Positions 336 to 4,263 of a stretch of 36,363 nucleotides of DNA are shown here, piece by piece. The stretch comes from Kiritimatiellia bacterium (GTDB lineage: Bacteria > Verrucomicrobiota > Kiritimatiellia > JAAZAB01), in the NCBI GenBank assembly GCA_028715905.1, contig JAQUQV010000001.1, forward strand, positions 78,241 through 114,603, given 5' to 3'. The notes beneath the pieces are model-generated. The model had not been told where the DNA came from. It did not search any database and saw nothing but the letters and a program-made list of their open reading frames with translations. The position numbers and the translations under genes were made by a program. Within the stretch, counting starts at the first letter, position 1. The number at the start of each line of letters is the position of its first letter.

Positions 336-1043
336 ATGTCCACCGTTCCAAAATGGCAATACAACGAGCTGAAGTTTCCCGGAGTGGATTATTCCCGGAA
401 AGACGCGGCGGCCGCATACGACCGCATGCACAAAAAGTTTCGGAATTACGCCAAGTCAGCGGATGAGATTATTCGGCGCCTGGCGCTCGGATCCAACAGC
501 ACGGTGATTGATCTCGGAGCGGGCACTGGCGCCTTTGCCCTGCATGCCTCCAAAAAATGCCGCACTGTTTACGCCGTGGATATATCCGCCGCCATGCTTG
601 CTTGCTGCCGCCGGCAGGCCGCCAAGGAAGGATTGTCAAATATTGTGTTCTGCCGGGGCGGCCTGCTTTCCTACGAACATCGCGCCGAACCGGCCGACGC
701 GGCCGTGTGCGTCGCCGCGCTTCACCATCTCCCCGATTTCTGGAAGGCGGCGGCGCTCACCCGCTGCCGCGGGATGCTCAAGCCCGGCGGCAGGTTATTC
801 CTGTTTGACATCGTTTTCCCTTCAAAAGGAACAAATCTGAACCGGAAGATAGACGCATGGATCAGGAACACCGCGGCCGCGGCCGGGCCGCGCCTGGCGA
901 AAGAAGCGGTTGTTCATGCCCGGGAAGAGTTCAGCACTTACGACTGGATTATGGAAGGGATCATCACGCGCAGCGGATTCCATATTGACGCGGCAAGATA
1001 CGGGAAGGGATTTCAGACGTCATACGTGTGCACAAAAAGATGA
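336..1043 (+). CDS. class I SAM-dependent methyltransferase
   Basis: A 235-residue soluble protein with the Rossmann methyltransferase signature. Motif I is VIDLGAGTGAF (57-67), followed by the acidic end of strand 2, VDIS (81-84). Motif IV is in the AALHHLPD stretch (127-134), and the post-motif LKPGGRLFLFD is at 148-158. The layout is that of the Methyltransf_11/25 group (UbiE/small-molecule type). The substrate cannot be read from the sequence. The N-terminal 50 residues (YDRMHKKFRNYAKSADEI) resemble the cap helix of this group. The ribosome site is weak (AAGAG about 8 bases before ATG). It is convergent with the sigma operon that follows and stands alone after marC, so context gives no clue to the substrate. 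Confidence 0.8.
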   Translation: MSTVPKWQYNELKFPGVDYSRKDAAAAYDRMHKKFRNYAKSADEIIRRLALGSNSTVIDLGAGTGAFALHASKKCRTVYAVDISAAMLACCRRQAAKEGLSNIVFCRGGLLSYEHRAEPADAAVCVAALHHLPDFWKAAALTRCRGMLKPGGRLFLFDIVFPSKGTNLNRKIDAWIRNTAAAAGPRLAKEAVVHAREEFSTYDWIMEGIITRSGFHIDAARYGKGFQTSYVCTKR

Positions 1044-1118
1044 ACAGCTTCCGGCCATGCCTTCATGGCAATATCGGCGCCGGGACGACGAGCGCTCCAC
1101 CCCCGCGTAAATCCCAGG

Positions 1119-1712
1119 TCAGTTGTTTCCCTTTGCCTTTTCCCGTTCTGCCTGGCGCTCGGCCTTCTGCTCCTGGATGTGCGTTTTGGTTTCCGCCTTT
1201 TGCGCGGCAAAATATTCCTTGAGCTTGGTTTTTTTCTGCGCAAGGCTCAGGGAAGCATCATTGGCTACCGATGTGAAATAAGCCACGTTTTCGCCGTGCT
1301 GCGTGTCGCGGAAAGACACGTTTTCGTTATATTGCGATTCAAAGAAGGAGGCTATTTCCGATTTCTGGGCGTCGCTCATTTTGGTGTTTTTCACCAGCCT
1401 TTCCTGCAGAAACGCCATGTTTTCATCGTGCTGTTTCTGGACAAACGCCCTGTTTTCCTGATACTGGGTTTCCCGGTGCGCGACAACGGCATCGGTTTTT
1501 TCAGTTCCCTTCACGTCCTTAATACTCTGCCTGAATTCCTTGTTTTCCTGTTTCTGCTGTTGAAAATGAGCCTTGCGCTCCTGCTTCTGCTGGGCGTGGT
1601 GTGATTTGACGGCCGACTTGGCGGCGTCATTCCCCGCCAATGCCTCGCCGGCAAAGAACGCCATGACGCTTATGGCCGCGCCAAGTATCATTATGGTTTT
1701 CATTGTTTTCAT
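1119..1712 (-). CDS. secreted repeat protein with Spy-like LTxxQ motifs
   Basis: I do not recognise a named family over the full 197 residues. A signal peptide is clear (MKTMKTIMILG, hydrophobic core, EALA cleavage near 26). The mature part is rich in Gln, Lys, Glu and His and almost all helical. It is built of about four units of 41-44 residues. Each opens with two 11-residue-spaced copies of Q-x-x-E-N-x-x-F, at 42/53, 83/94, 127/138 and 171/182. Units 2 and 3 end in MSDAQKSEI (112-120) and LSLAQKKTKL (155-164), which resemble the LTxxQ motif of Spy/CpxP. An AAGGAGG site sits 9 bases before ATG, inside the end of the upstream Spy-like gene (4-base gap), so the two are co-translated. A periplasmic chaperone or metal-binding role is inference. 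Confidence 0.75.
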   Translation of the reverse strand: MKTMKTIMILGAAISVMAFFAGEALAGNDAAKSAVKSHHAQQKQERKAHFQQQKQENKEFRQSIKDVKGTEKTDAVVAHRETQYQENRAFVQKQHDENMAFLQERLVKNTKMSDAQKSEIASFFESQYNENVSFRDTQHGENVAYFTSVANDASLSLAQKKTKLKEYFAAQKAETKTHIQEQKAERQAEREKAKGNN

Positions 1713-1716
1713 CGCG

Positions 1717-2220
1717 TTAATCCTCCTTTATGTCATTTTCCCTGTTCCCGCGCTTTTTTCCGCCCCAGAACGGACGGCAAGCGCCTTCCGGTCCGTTTCT
1801 TTGCCGTTTGAATTCCTGCAGTTTGCGAATCTGTTCGGCGTTGAGTATTTCCTTGATGGCGAAAATATTATTGATCCGCAGATCCACCATTTTGGAGTGA
1901 ATTTCCTTGATTTCCGCGGCGAGCGGGGCAATGGTCTCGCGGGTTACGGCAGGATCGTTCAATTTGTCCCGGATCTGCCGGTTTTTTTCCCGCAACGCCT
2001 GCATGAGGGCCTGCATCTGCCCGCGCTGGCTCTGGCGCAGGGCATCTATTTTTTCCTTTTGCCCGGCGCTTAATTCCAGCCGGGCCATGGCCGCATCACG
2101 GCGCTCGTCATCGTTCCCCGCCGGCCTGGCAACCTCGCCTTGATCCCCCGCAAAAACGGGCATAAGCATAATGGCCGAGAGCAAAAACATGCACGGAATT
2201 GTTTGCGCTGTTTTTTTCAT
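1717..2220 (-). CDS. Spy/CpxP-like periplasmic LTxxQ protein
   Basis: 167 residues from an ATG preceded by AGGAG. A longer frame runs back to 2298, but it lacks a ribosome site and would overlap the anti-sigma gene. A signal peptide spans 1-24 (MKKTAQTIPC ... VFA). The mature protein is one long amphipathic helical region with two LTxxQ-type motifs, LSAGQ (50-54) and LNAEQ (126-130). They flank a charged helix pair, the architecture of Spy/CpxP and the CnrX/ZraP metal sensors. The C-terminus is basic. It follows the sigma/anti-sigma pair in the same direction, so it is either a target of that regulon (chaperone) or its sensor (CnrX-like). No His/Cys metal cluster is obvious, which favours the chaperone reading. 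Confidence 0.75.
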   Translation of the reverse strand: MKKTAQTIPCMFLLSAIMLMPVFAGDQGEVARPAGNDDERRDAAMARLELSAGQKEKIDALRQSQRGQMQALMQALREKNRQIRDKLNDPAVTRETIAPLAAEIKEIHSKMVDLRINNIFAIKEILNAEQIRKLQEFKRQRNGPEGACRPFWGGKKRGNRENDIKED

Positions 2221-2294
2221 GGCGCTTTCTCCTCTCACATCCTCTGACGCCGTTCCGCCGGCAAAAGTTCCCGCGGAAATCCGCCGCGGCCGCG

Positions 2295-2789
2295 TCAAAG
2301 AAAATATTTTTCAATATCGCTCCCGAAATCAACATCCGGCGCGCGCAGTTCGCCGTTGCCGGCCAGCGAGGTCAGCGACGGTGCAGGTCCGCCGTTATCC
2401 AGGCACGGGCTGTGGAAATAAAAACCGACGGCGGCGATAACCAGCGCCGCGGCCGCCGCCGCAAAAGCAAACGCGCTTTTGCGGGGCGAGAAAAACCTGA
2501 AACGCGCCGCGGAAAAATTTCCGGACGGATTCAGGCATGGAACGCTCGCCGGCCGGATATTTTCTCGAATGCGCAGCCACAGGCTTTCCGGCGGATTAAC
2601 CCGGGGCGCGTTGCGCAAAGCGCATGAAATCGCCGCAAGAGTTTCCCCGGCTTGCCGGCAGGCGGGACATTCTGCCATATGCTGCCGGACCTGTTGCCGC
2701 GTCGCTTCGTCAAGTCCGTCGTCCGGATAAGAGTTTTTGAGCAGCGCTGAAATCCGTTTGCAGTCAATTCCGTCCTTTTGCGCGTTCAT
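2295..2789 (-). CDS. anti-sigma factor with zf-HC2 domain
   Basis: 164 residues. The N-terminal cytoplasmic zinc-finger domain carries the H-x3-C-x2-C signature (H37, C41, C44) of anti-sigma factors such as RsrA, ChrR and the zf-HC2 group. A single membrane helix lies at about 106-125 (Ala-rich). A short periplasmic tail of about 40 residues follows. Its start overlaps the sigma factor stop as ATGA (2786-2789), a sign of translational coupling and the usual arrangement for an ECF sigma/anti-sigma pair. Known biology of the family: the N-domain holds the sigma factor at the membrane until a signal releases it, by proteolysis or redox. The short periplasmic tail leaves little room for a sensor, so the downstream Spy-like protein may do the sensing. 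Confidence 0.85.
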   Translation of the reverse strand: MNAQKDGIDCKRISALLKNSYPDDGLDEATRQQVRQHMAECPACRQAGETLAAISCALRNAPRVNPPESLWLRIRENIRPASVPCLNPSGNFSAARFRFFSPRKSAFAFAAAAAALVIAAVGFYFHSPCLDNGGPAPSLTSLAGNGELRAPDVDFGSDIEKYFL

Positions 2790-3343
2790 ACCAACGGCTC
2801 CTTTTTTGCCAGTTCCAGCAACGTTTCCCGCGCGCGAAACAGACGCGAACGCACGGTGTTGATCGGGATGCCGAGAATTTCGGCAATTTCGTTGTAAGCC
2901 AGCCCCTCCATCTCGCGCAAAACGACACAGGCTCTCTGTTCCGGGTCCAGTTTGGAAAGGAAATAGGCCGCCAGGGTTTCGTTGTCCTTTTTAGCGACCG
3001 GATCGGGGAACGGCGCGGAAGCCGGCTCGGCCGCAAGATGATTCCTGTACCCGGCGAAGGCGTGCGCCTCGCCGGAGCTTTTCCGGCAGCGGCTGATGGC
3101 GGCATTGACCGTGATGCGGTAAAGCCAGGTTTTCAATGAGGATTGAAACGCAAATTGGCCCAGGTTCTTATGCATTTTCACGAACGCTTCCTGGGCTATT
3201 TCTTCGGCATCGGCATAATGGCGCACAATCCTCAAAGCCGTGTTAAAGACAAATCCGCTTGTCAGGCGGTATATTTCCTCAAAGGCCGCCATATCGCCCT
3301 CTTTCGCCTTTATGATCATTTCCCGCGAAATGTCGTTTTCCAT
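2786..3343 (-). CDS. ECF-type RNA polymerase sigma factor
   Basis: 185 residues, the normal length for an extracytoplasmic-function sigma factor. Region 2 covers about 20-90 (AFEEIYRLTSGF, then DAEEIAQEAFVKMH, then LKTWLYRITVNAA). Region 4 covers about 128-178 (LDPEQRACVVLREMEGL, then the helix-turn-helix with IPINTVRSRLFRAR). There is no sigma region 1 or 3. It is the first gene of a four-gene minus-strand operon and overlaps the anti-sigma gene by four bases. No ribosome site is visible before the ATG, and the predicted leader is only about a dozen bases. A promoter resembling the RpoE consensus lies just upstream, so autoregulation is likely. The closest known group is RpoE/SigW-like. Confidence 0.92.
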   Translation of the reverse strand: MENDISREMIIKAKEGDMAAFEEIYRLTSGFVFNTALRIVRHYADAEEIAQEAFVKMHKNLGQFAFQSSLKTWLYRITVNAAISRCRKSSGEAHAFAGYRNHLAAEPASAPFPDPVAKKDNETLAAYFLSKLDPEQRACVVLREMEGLAYNEIAEILGIPINTVRSRLFRARETLLELAKKEPLV

Positions 3344-3360
3344 AATCGCATTCTATTTGG

Positions 3361-3389
3361 TTAGACGCGGGATAGCCAAGATTTGTTCC
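3361..3389 (-). promoter_or_regulatory. predicted ECF-type autoregulated promoter
   Basis: On the minus strand, GGAAC (3389-3385) is followed after 18 bases by GTCTAA (3366-3361). This closely fits the RpoE-type consensus GGAACTT, a spacer of about 16, and GTCTAA/TCTGA. Transcription would start near 3354, giving a leader of roughly 10 bases before the sigma-factor ATG at 3343. The match is read directly from the sequence; use by the adjacent sigma factor is inferred from the usual autoregulation of such operons. Confidence 0.6.
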
Positions 3390-3597
3390 GGGAGACGGAA
3401 AGGATAAAACAAGAAATGAAGAAGGCTTTGCACAGAAATTACGCGGGGCCCGCGCGCTCTAACCCAAGGCAAACCCAGGCCGCCACGGTCAGTTTTGCGC
3501 TTTGCAAGCGTCCCCGCCGGCGATCCAAACGGCGCCCGTCCCGTGTGTGCGGCGCATCAGCAAGACCATATATGGCTACAAACCCGCCCTGGCGTTT

Positions 3598-4263
3598 TTA
3601 TTGACAGGCATTCCAGTTCGTGCAGGGATTGACTTTGCGATCGCCATACAGATTGAAAGCGTTGGTGAGCGAGGGCACCAGCATGTTATTGGTGGTCATA
3701 TCGGGATTGTTGGTTGAATCCACCCACATGCCCGAACCGGAACAACGCACGAAATTGCCGCCCATGCTGTCATGATTTCCGCCCCAGTTATTCTTGATAT
3801 CGGGAAATACGGGACGGTCGCCGTTAATATCGCACAGTAACACATAATTGCCATCCACATCCTTGCGGCCGGATATATAATGGTAACTGGTGTTGTTGGT
3901 GGTCATGGCTTCCAGATTGTCAGCCACCCTATGCATTTCCCCCTTGCTGGCTCCCGCGGCCGAAGGACAGATAAAAATTCCCGGGGAAAGACTTTTGTCT
4001 TTTACCAGGGCGCCGTTTGTTCCGACTATATAGCCGGCGGGGAAAGCGGGCCGGAACGAATCGCGGGGATCAAGCCCCCAGGCCGCACAGGCCTTATAAA
4101 TGCCGTTCATGTTAGAAAGACAATTGACGCGCCGCGCGTTTTCACGGACTTTTCCGAGGTTGGGCAGGAGCAACGCCGCCAGGAGCGCGATAATCGCGAC
4201 CACGACAAGTAGTTCCACAAGGGTAAAAGCTTTCCCGTGAATTCTGCGCCAGACTTGTTTCAT
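3598..4263 (-). CDS. pseudopilin with type II prepilin N-terminus
   Basis: 221 residues. It starts with a short basic leader and the prepilin peptidase site KA|FTLVE (cleavage after A12, glutamate at mature position 5). A 20-residue hydrophobic helix follows to about residue 34. Position -1 is Ala instead of the common Gly, which prepilin peptidases tolerate. The C-terminal globular part has the [12 protein letters not shown] ... GSGMWVDS element. It resembles the NH-x-GGxNxxFxDGxVxW end of the many pseudopilin-like proteins of Planctomycetes, Lentisphaerae and Verrucomicrobia, but the usual DG pair is replaced by SGSG. An AGGAGG site precedes ATG. Upstream, 4297-4318 is very AT-rich and may hold the promoter. 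No secretion or pilus genes are nearby; an envelope or secretion role is inferred. Confidence 0.8.

Follow-up and report, generated by a model that had tools for sequence, protein, structure and literature searches.

Among described systems, CirY/CirZ-Spy of Phocaeicola vulgatus, reported in 2026, is one of the closest in layout to the operon considered here. In the portion of that report drawn on here, an extracytoplasmic function (ECF) sigma factor and its anti-sigma factor are co-transcribed with a Spy-type chaperone encoded just downstream, and the system shows autoinduction and a regulon with further envelope genes, which includes a carbohydrate-binding hydrolase and a LysM/glucosaminidase protein (PMC13114119). 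CnrYXH of Cupriavidus metallidurans combines an ECF sigma factor, a single-transmembrane anti-sigma factor and the CnrX/Spy-fold protein, and its target is an efflux operon (PMC7689651, in the part considered). Here, we analyzed a four-gene operon with a comparable set of genes in a 36,363-nucleotide stretch of DNA (the window) from an uncultured member of the Lentisphaerae/Verrucomicrobia group, the genome of which comprises 2.67 Mb in 141 contigs. A GGAAC -35 element, autoregulation and envelope targets are features of the RpoE-RseA and AlgU-MucA systems of Gammaproteobacteria and, by prediction, of this operon as well.

We propose that the operon encodes an autoregulated envelope-stress sigma switch (probability roughly 0.63). 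Its regulon would be formed by a promoter before the sigma gene (P1), a second before the Spy gene (P2) and a third before a distant exporter, and the Spy-fold protein would act mainly as an output.

A sigma, anti-sigma and Spy-fold operon

Four co-directional and tightly packed open reading frames (ORFs) on the minus strand span positions 3343 down to 1119 of the window. The first (2786..3343, minus strand) encodes a sigma factor of 185 aa that contains sigma2 and sigma4 domains only, the composition of an ECF sigma factor. Sigma70_r2 (PF04542, 4.6e-14) and Sigma70_r4_2 (PF08281, 4.2e-17) both exceed their Pfam cut-offs, as does the sigma70-ECF superfamily in NCBIfam. The equivalog cut-off was not reached in any of the 25 NCBIfam families listed (best PRK11922, 117.6 bits versus 204). 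The nearest relatives in the PDB are a sigma-H factor that we take to be AlgU (6in7, 7.5e-23), SigW (1e-21) and RpoE (1.9e-19). One likeness to RpoE-RseA and AlgU-MucA lies in the sequence of the sigma factor, whereas the score for the RpoE equivalog TIGR02939 (101 bits) falls short of the cut-off of 236.15, and the anti-sigma factor is of the zf-HC2 type. A tblastn search of plasmids with the sigma factor gave 35-39% identity among the matches listed, and 1 of 1323 records fell in the 60-80% band.

The neighboring ORF shares 4 nt with the sigma gene and encodes a membrane anti-sigma factor of 164 aa (2295..2789, minus strand). It carries a zf-HC2 domain (PF13490; 8.2e-08, 32.6 bits against a cut-off of 22.2) and has an NCBIfam antisigma match (8.6e-14) that lies below its cut-off. 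Hydropathy revealed a single strongly hydrophobic segment at about 105-125, followed by a tail of 38-40 residues, which bears out the statement in an earlier note on this DNA that the protein has almost no periplasmic domain. Single-transmembrane anti-sigma factors with a short tail, such as RseA and RsiW, are the usual substrates of regulated proteolysis. The protein also contains an Hx3Cx2C signature (H37-x3-C41-x2-C44) that is predicted to bind zinc, and the cysteines C10, C56 and C85. In contrast, CnrY is a class II anti-sigma factor according to the part of PMC7406223 used here. The cysteines of the window protein raise the alternative that the anti-sigma factor senses redox state or zinc, in which case oxidation of the Hx3Cx2C cysteines would release the sigma factor and the membrane anchor and Spy would be secondary. 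A weak, sub-cut-off match to RsrA, an anti-sigma factor of the mycothiol system (1.4e-05), points the same way. However, the zinc motif is no predictor of redox function, as about 48% of membrane-bound class I anti-sigma factors possess it (PMC7406223, same part), and the putative targets described below point to protein maintenance in the periplasm and to efflux rather than to the repair of thiols. We regard redox or zinc sensing as very unlikely.

The gene for the Spy/ZraP/CnrX-fold protein (ORF3, 167 aa; 1717..2220, minus strand) lies beyond a gap of 74 nt and is separated by 4 nt from ORF4 (197 aa; 1119..1712, minus strand), in which an N-terminal hydrophobic segment precedes four helical repeats of about 43-44 aa. 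The order sigma, anti-sigma, Spy is that of a CirYZ-Spy type operon. The resemblance described here is one of layout; the P. vulgatus system belongs to another phylum, and the window operon differs from it in ORF4, the putative second promoter before Spy and the TolC-HlyD-ABC target. With a zf-HC2 membrane protein encoded next to the sigma factor and an ECF-type site 5′ of the sigma gene, the Pfam domains and the layout support the putative autoregulated ECF sigma/anti-sigma/Spy envelope module that the earlier note had described.

Putative promoter sites and a distant exporter

The putative promoter P1, GGAAC-N16-GCGTC-TAA (3361..3389, minus strand), is located 5′ of the sigma gene, and the ATG follows 17 nt after the TAA. 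The earlier note had written this element as GGAAC-N18-GTCTAA and matched it to RpoE; its presence directly before the sigma gene (3389-3361) is confirmed, whereas the -10 is presumably the general ECF CGTC and not specifically that of E. coli RpoE. That note also proposed a search for further copies of the exact form; the genome holds a single match, P1 itself, against 4 for the reversed control. The corrected core, GGAAC-N16-GCGTC, has 10 exact matches in the genome, including P1, P2, a site before a TolC-like gene and a site near an SIS-domain gene. The putative promoter P2, GGAACTTTTGC-N9-GGCGTC (2246..2271, minus strand; G000:C1:80486-80511), is situated in the 74-nt gap between the anti-sigma and Spy genes, 25 nt before the Spy ATG. 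By arithmetic from the genome count, about 0.0008 matches to the loose core GGAAC-N16-18-CGTC would be expected in this gap. The third site lies on contig C79, 36 nt before the TolC-like gene. All three sites share a 17-nt spacing to CGTC, and P2 and the tolC site have both GGAACTTTTGC and GGCGTC in common.

Downstream of the C79 site are genes for a TolC-like protein (OEP, 1.8e-55), an HlyD-type membrane fusion protein (HlyD_3, 2.2e-17) and an ABC ATPase (ABC_tran, 3.3e-15), of which only the start is present before the contig ends. They look like a MacAB-TolC-type exporter operon and would encode a tripartite exporter of the ABC type, whereas the pump in the CnrYXH case is of the RND type. 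Before the site, on the same strand, are genes for an AcrB-type pump (ACR_tran, 2.3e-270), an outer-membrane-factor-like protein recognized by eye and an enoyl-CoA hydratase-like protein (8.7e-14). The AcrB-type pump gene (L191:5122-7644) holds a run of N, which represents either masking or an assembly gap. The regulon likely comprises the sigma and anti-sigma genes, Spy with ORF4, and the TolC-HlyD-ABC exporter. Because a second site precedes Spy and a third precedes a distant exporter, the module is probably not the self-contained one that the earlier note had described. Its idea that motif matches precede envelope genes fails for the exact motif and stands for the corrected core, the three intergenic upstream sites of which lie before the module, its Spy gene and the exporter operon.

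We located the genome matches relative to genes called with a simple codon-usage gene caller. For the loose core, 83 of the 87 matches lie within genes and 4 are intergenic; three of these four, namely P1, P2 and the tolC site, are followed within 200 nt by a gene on the same strand, and 2 of the 83 in-gene matches are also less than 200 nt before the next gene. Among 30 of the 81 places of the reversed loose pattern, 1 was intergenic and upstream, versus 3 of 87 for the forward pattern. In the fetched stretches, 1.48% of the oriented positions are intergenic and lie 0-60 nt before a gene; with P1 left out, 2 of the 9 tight matches are at such positions (P = 0.007). Within this genome, P2 and the tolC site are the only two perfect matches to an extended core, GGAACTTTT-N13-CGTC. 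When up to two mismatches were allowed, these remained the only intergenic upstream matches, and five others lie within a gene and less than 200 nt before the next one. In 96 other genomes, the perfect extended core occurs 8 times in total and never twice; seven of these matches are in genes and one is intergenic. The latter (G131, L311:1501-1526) is located 31 nt before a gene whose product has a hydrophobic start, and it may be an ECF promoter there. A one-mismatch version of GGAAC-N16-GCGTC gave at least 274 matches, versus 340 for the reversed control, and was not used as a regulon search.

Several observations weigh against the proposed switch and its regulon. The loose core is not enriched (87 matches versus 81 for the reversed control), and therefore the bulk of its matches must be due to chance; its frequency upstream of genes is unremarkable (3 of 87 where 1.29 are expected, P = 0.14; 2 of 86 without P1, P = 0.36). 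The tight form and the extended core were chosen post hoc, after the sites had been seen, and the significance rests on them. One strict match lies within the preceding gene, 37 nt before the SIS-domain gene, one loose match lies 119 nt before a gene without a Pfam family, and the TTTT of P2 and the tolC site is missing from P1. The reversed extended pattern is commoner than the forward one, with 18 perfect matches across the 96 other genomes, 4 of which hold it twice, and, at up to two mismatches, 271 matches in this genome versus 90 (by the tool) or 91 (by our own scan). Therefore, position and not copy number carries the case for the regulon. Additionally, P1 is overlapped by a sigma70-like match (9/12; 3379-3350, minus strand), from which basal transcription could start (within 900-3700, there are 4 such 9/12 matches versus 1.2 in shuffles), and further ECF sigma factors encoded in the genome could recognize the same motif. 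Homologue searches covered 58 genomes including its own, several of them incomplete, with the family represented by its own genome and nine others. The four-gene arrangement, which the earlier note had proposed to look for in relatives, was not found in these nine; since no relative keeps it, there is no conservation footprint for the sites. Together with the single exact copy of the motif, this goes halfway toward the outcome that the note had named as refuting its reading.

Some of these observations would equally suit an ordinary ECF pair with Spy and ORF4 as incidental neighbors; the P2 and tolC sites would then have arisen by chance or serve another sigma factor. Such a pair would agree with a gene order not conserved in the relatives searched, a loose motif not enriched upstream of genes, and the absence of the motif upstream of ORF4 in all four of its relatives (0/4). 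However, Spy and ORF4 are only 4 nt apart, 6 of the 10 loci in the family have a sigma gene adjacent to the Spy-like gene or one gene away, and the rarity and position of the extended motif at P2 and the tolC site also speak against chance. We consider an incidental arrangement highly improbable.

The Spy-fold protein and ORF4

According to the switch that we favor, the anti-sigma factor would hold the ECF sigma factor at the inner membrane via its cytoplasmic zinc-type domain. Envelope damage would remove the anti-sigma factor, most probably by regulated intramembrane proteolysis, in which the short outer tail is cut before the membrane segment, and the freed sigma factor would read the GGAAC-N16-GCGTC promoters. 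Transcription from P1 would generate more sigma and anti-sigma factor, causing positive feedback with a built-in brake, whereas P2 would supply extra Spy-fold chaperone and ORF4 independently of the sigma/anti-sigma dose, and the distant promoter would supply the TolC-HlyD-ABC exporter. Spy would mainly serve as an output and bind unfolded protein in the periplasm, and ORF4, which is attached to the operon, would probably have a related protective or scaffolding job.

ORF3 exceeds the cut-offs of both Metal_resist (PF13801; 3.1e-10, 40.7 bits versus 29.2) and LTXXQ (PF07813; 1.5e-06, 29.3 versus 24.3), and its hydrophobic N-terminal segment (7-25) was judged by eye to be a signal peptide, or possibly a membrane anchor. 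With a single-sequence structure model (pLDDT 71.6), Foldseek returned ZraP (3lay, probability 1.00), CnrX (2y3b/4wwf, 0.97-0.98) and CpxP (0.3-0.5), none with E <= 0.001. In VIA-align, the best Z was 10.2, and ZraP (Z 9.9, rmsd 2.8, 79 aligned) was tied with unrelated helical hairpins. No relative of the protein was found in the PDB by sequence, and a plasmid tblastn search with it gave no match.

The earlier note had suggested, on the model of CnrYXH, that the chaperone doubles as the sensor. In such CnrYXH- or CpxP-like sensing, the Spy-fold protein, perhaps together with ORF4, would keep the anti-sigma tail closed until unfolded protein or a ligand frees the sigma factor. The resemblance to CnrX and ZraP stands, with CnrX among the best named fold matches but at no E < 0.001. 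A sensor role is possible, since the anti-sigma tail seems too short to sense alone or to form a sensor domain of its own, four sister-genus genomes (G005-G008) have a CnrYXH-like layout, and the N-terminal segment of ORF3 is a candidate uncleaved anchor; CnrX-CnrY-CnrH is an established case of sensing in the portion of PMC7689651 used here. However, ORF3 has no His-rich site, and a CnrX-like His/Met metal site is unlikely because the whole protein contains a single His, H108. The metal site of CnrX uses His ligands. Met123 is part of that site (PMC7689651, same portion). Moreover, P2 would yield Spy protein in excess of the anti-sigma factor, and in P. vulgatus, loss of the anti-sigma factor alone raised cirY and spy, as would be seen for an output, together with two neighbors (PMC13114119, in the part considered). 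Because ORF3 has a putative sigma-type promoter of its own and lacks a CnrX-like His cluster, we read Spy as an output first; the sensing proposal is weakened and in our view rather unlikely. We also find it unlikely that the Spy-fold protein and ORF4 together form a sensor that is titrated off the anti-sigma tail by unfolded envelope proteins, and that Spy-fold proteins were plugged onto different ECF sigma factors, with anti-sigma factors of differing type, on at least two and perhaps three occasions in the family. If this were true, a chaperone would measure envelope damage directly.

Of the two Spy-like effectors of the earlier note, ORF3 alone is confirmed. Pfam assigns ORF4 to no family (best E 0.41), PF13801 and PF07813 included, its only NCBIfam match is SaoC (E 0.0012, 18.7 bits versus a cut-off of 80), and a profile search found no PDB relative. 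Internal repeats at offsets 44, 88, 129 and 41 score 44, 34, 54 and 33, whereas 300 shuffles reached at most 29, and AlphaFold2 models four helices of 37-40 residues each (pLDDT 86.2). ORF4 is thus predicted to be a four-repeat helical protein that is no member of the Spy family by sequence. Its best VIA-align matches are eisosome/BAR-type proteins (Z 9.0, rmsd 4.5, 147 aligned), in a range common for helical bundles, and the structural matches listed are generic helical proteins other than Spy. LTxxQ-like turns occur before helices 3 and 4 in all five aligned ORF4 sequences and before helix 2 in two of the five. Relatives are present in four of the nine other family genomes, the match beyond the family being a single weak and partial one, and a short-peptide-pattern scan of 84,980 species genomes recovered the same four only. 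All four are metagenome-assembled genomes; one bears the name Verrucomicrobia and the other three Lentisphaerae, two of the latter with "groundwater" in the name. ORF4 therefore looks like a small new lineage-specific helical-repeat family. Since no sigma gene is present among the ORFs listed around ORF4 in these four relatives and the motif is missing upstream, the gene seems to be an older one of the family, to which only this lineage added the sigma/anti-sigma/Spy triad, provided that the triad was not lost from the other genomes.

Spy and ECF sigma factors in the family

The family contains no close relatives of the window sigma factor, anti-sigma factor or Spy. The best sigma factors are 31-33% identical in the family and 38% in the class, the latter counting only E <= 1e-15. 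In 19 neighborhoods examined from the 72 listed sigma matches outside its own genome, an LTxxQ protein right after the anti-sigma factor was found in 0 of 19; the gene caller missed the sigma gene itself in two of them (L204, L210). At E <= 1e-5, Spy relatives were found in 3 of 386 other genomes of the phylum, all weak. Genes with PF13801 are present in 9 of the 10 family genomes, at 10 loci. A same-strand sigma gene adjoins the Spy-like gene or is one gene away at 6 of these 10 loci (the window, G005, G006, G007 and two in G008), and no same-strand sigma gene is nearby at the other four (G001, G002, G003 and G004), of which those of G002 and G004 are near a contig end and partly blind, and that of G001 has an opposite-strand neighbor with a weak sigma match (6.8e-06). 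Among eight Spy-like neighborhoods checked, a sigma gene adjoins in G007 and a weak sigma-like gene is present in L281.

The sister genus g6 (G005-G008) carries an operon for a Spy-like protein, an ECF sigma factor, a small transmembrane protein and an LTxxQ protein with an N-terminal hydrophobic segment (L303:2471-4419 in G005, L304:1-2182 in G006, L284:2967-4959 in G007 and L302:157-2297 in G008); a gene near it is presumably trxB-like. Similar to the window operon, an ECF sigma gene adjoins a Spy-like gene. In contrast, Spy comes first, the small transmembrane protein, the anti-sigma candidate, lacks the zinc motif, there is an extra LTxxQ protein, and the Spy promoters share a G-AACC stretch and not GGAAC. 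The g6 sigma factors are 24-26% identical to that of the window (three of the four were aligned), and all four form a separate clade. A second locus in G008 (L306:4143-5857) encodes a sigma factor, a 146-aa protein and a Spy-like protein that falls under the Pfam cut-off (26.4 versus 29.2 bits), which is a window-like order with a divergent sigma factor. In a tree of 23 sigma factors, that of the window is deep, in a group of five that includes the second G008 sigma factor; node support for this group is weak (0.07-0.54). Therefore, the tree suggests, and does not prove, that the window and g6 sigma factors became paired with Spy independently.

Elsewhere in the window, a gene on the same strand upstream of the operon (3598-4263, minus strand) encodes a pseudopilin-like protein with an N-terminal methylation motif (PF07963, 7.4e-06), of a type common in this lineage. 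In the same genome, the first 40 bases of contig C89 (6206 bases; L160, L161) are repeated 209 bases before the contig end; one end of the contig encodes a protein that looks phage-like by eye, no exact terminal repeat was found, and the contig is perhaps a circular or tandem 6-kb element.

Overall, the type of alarm is known, whereas the ORF4 partner protein and the wiring look new, and no system of this kind was found described for this lineage in the literature searched. The operon adds a concrete, three-promoter putative regulon that would link periplasmic chaperoning to an ABC-type exporter. As far as the predicted genes show, different ECF sigma factors have Spy/CnrX-fold proteins as partners within a single family. 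Whether Spy is an output or a sensor becomes testable by comparing the window operon with the CnrYXH-like operon of the sister genus, which is possibly the better place of the two to test Spy/CnrX sensing.

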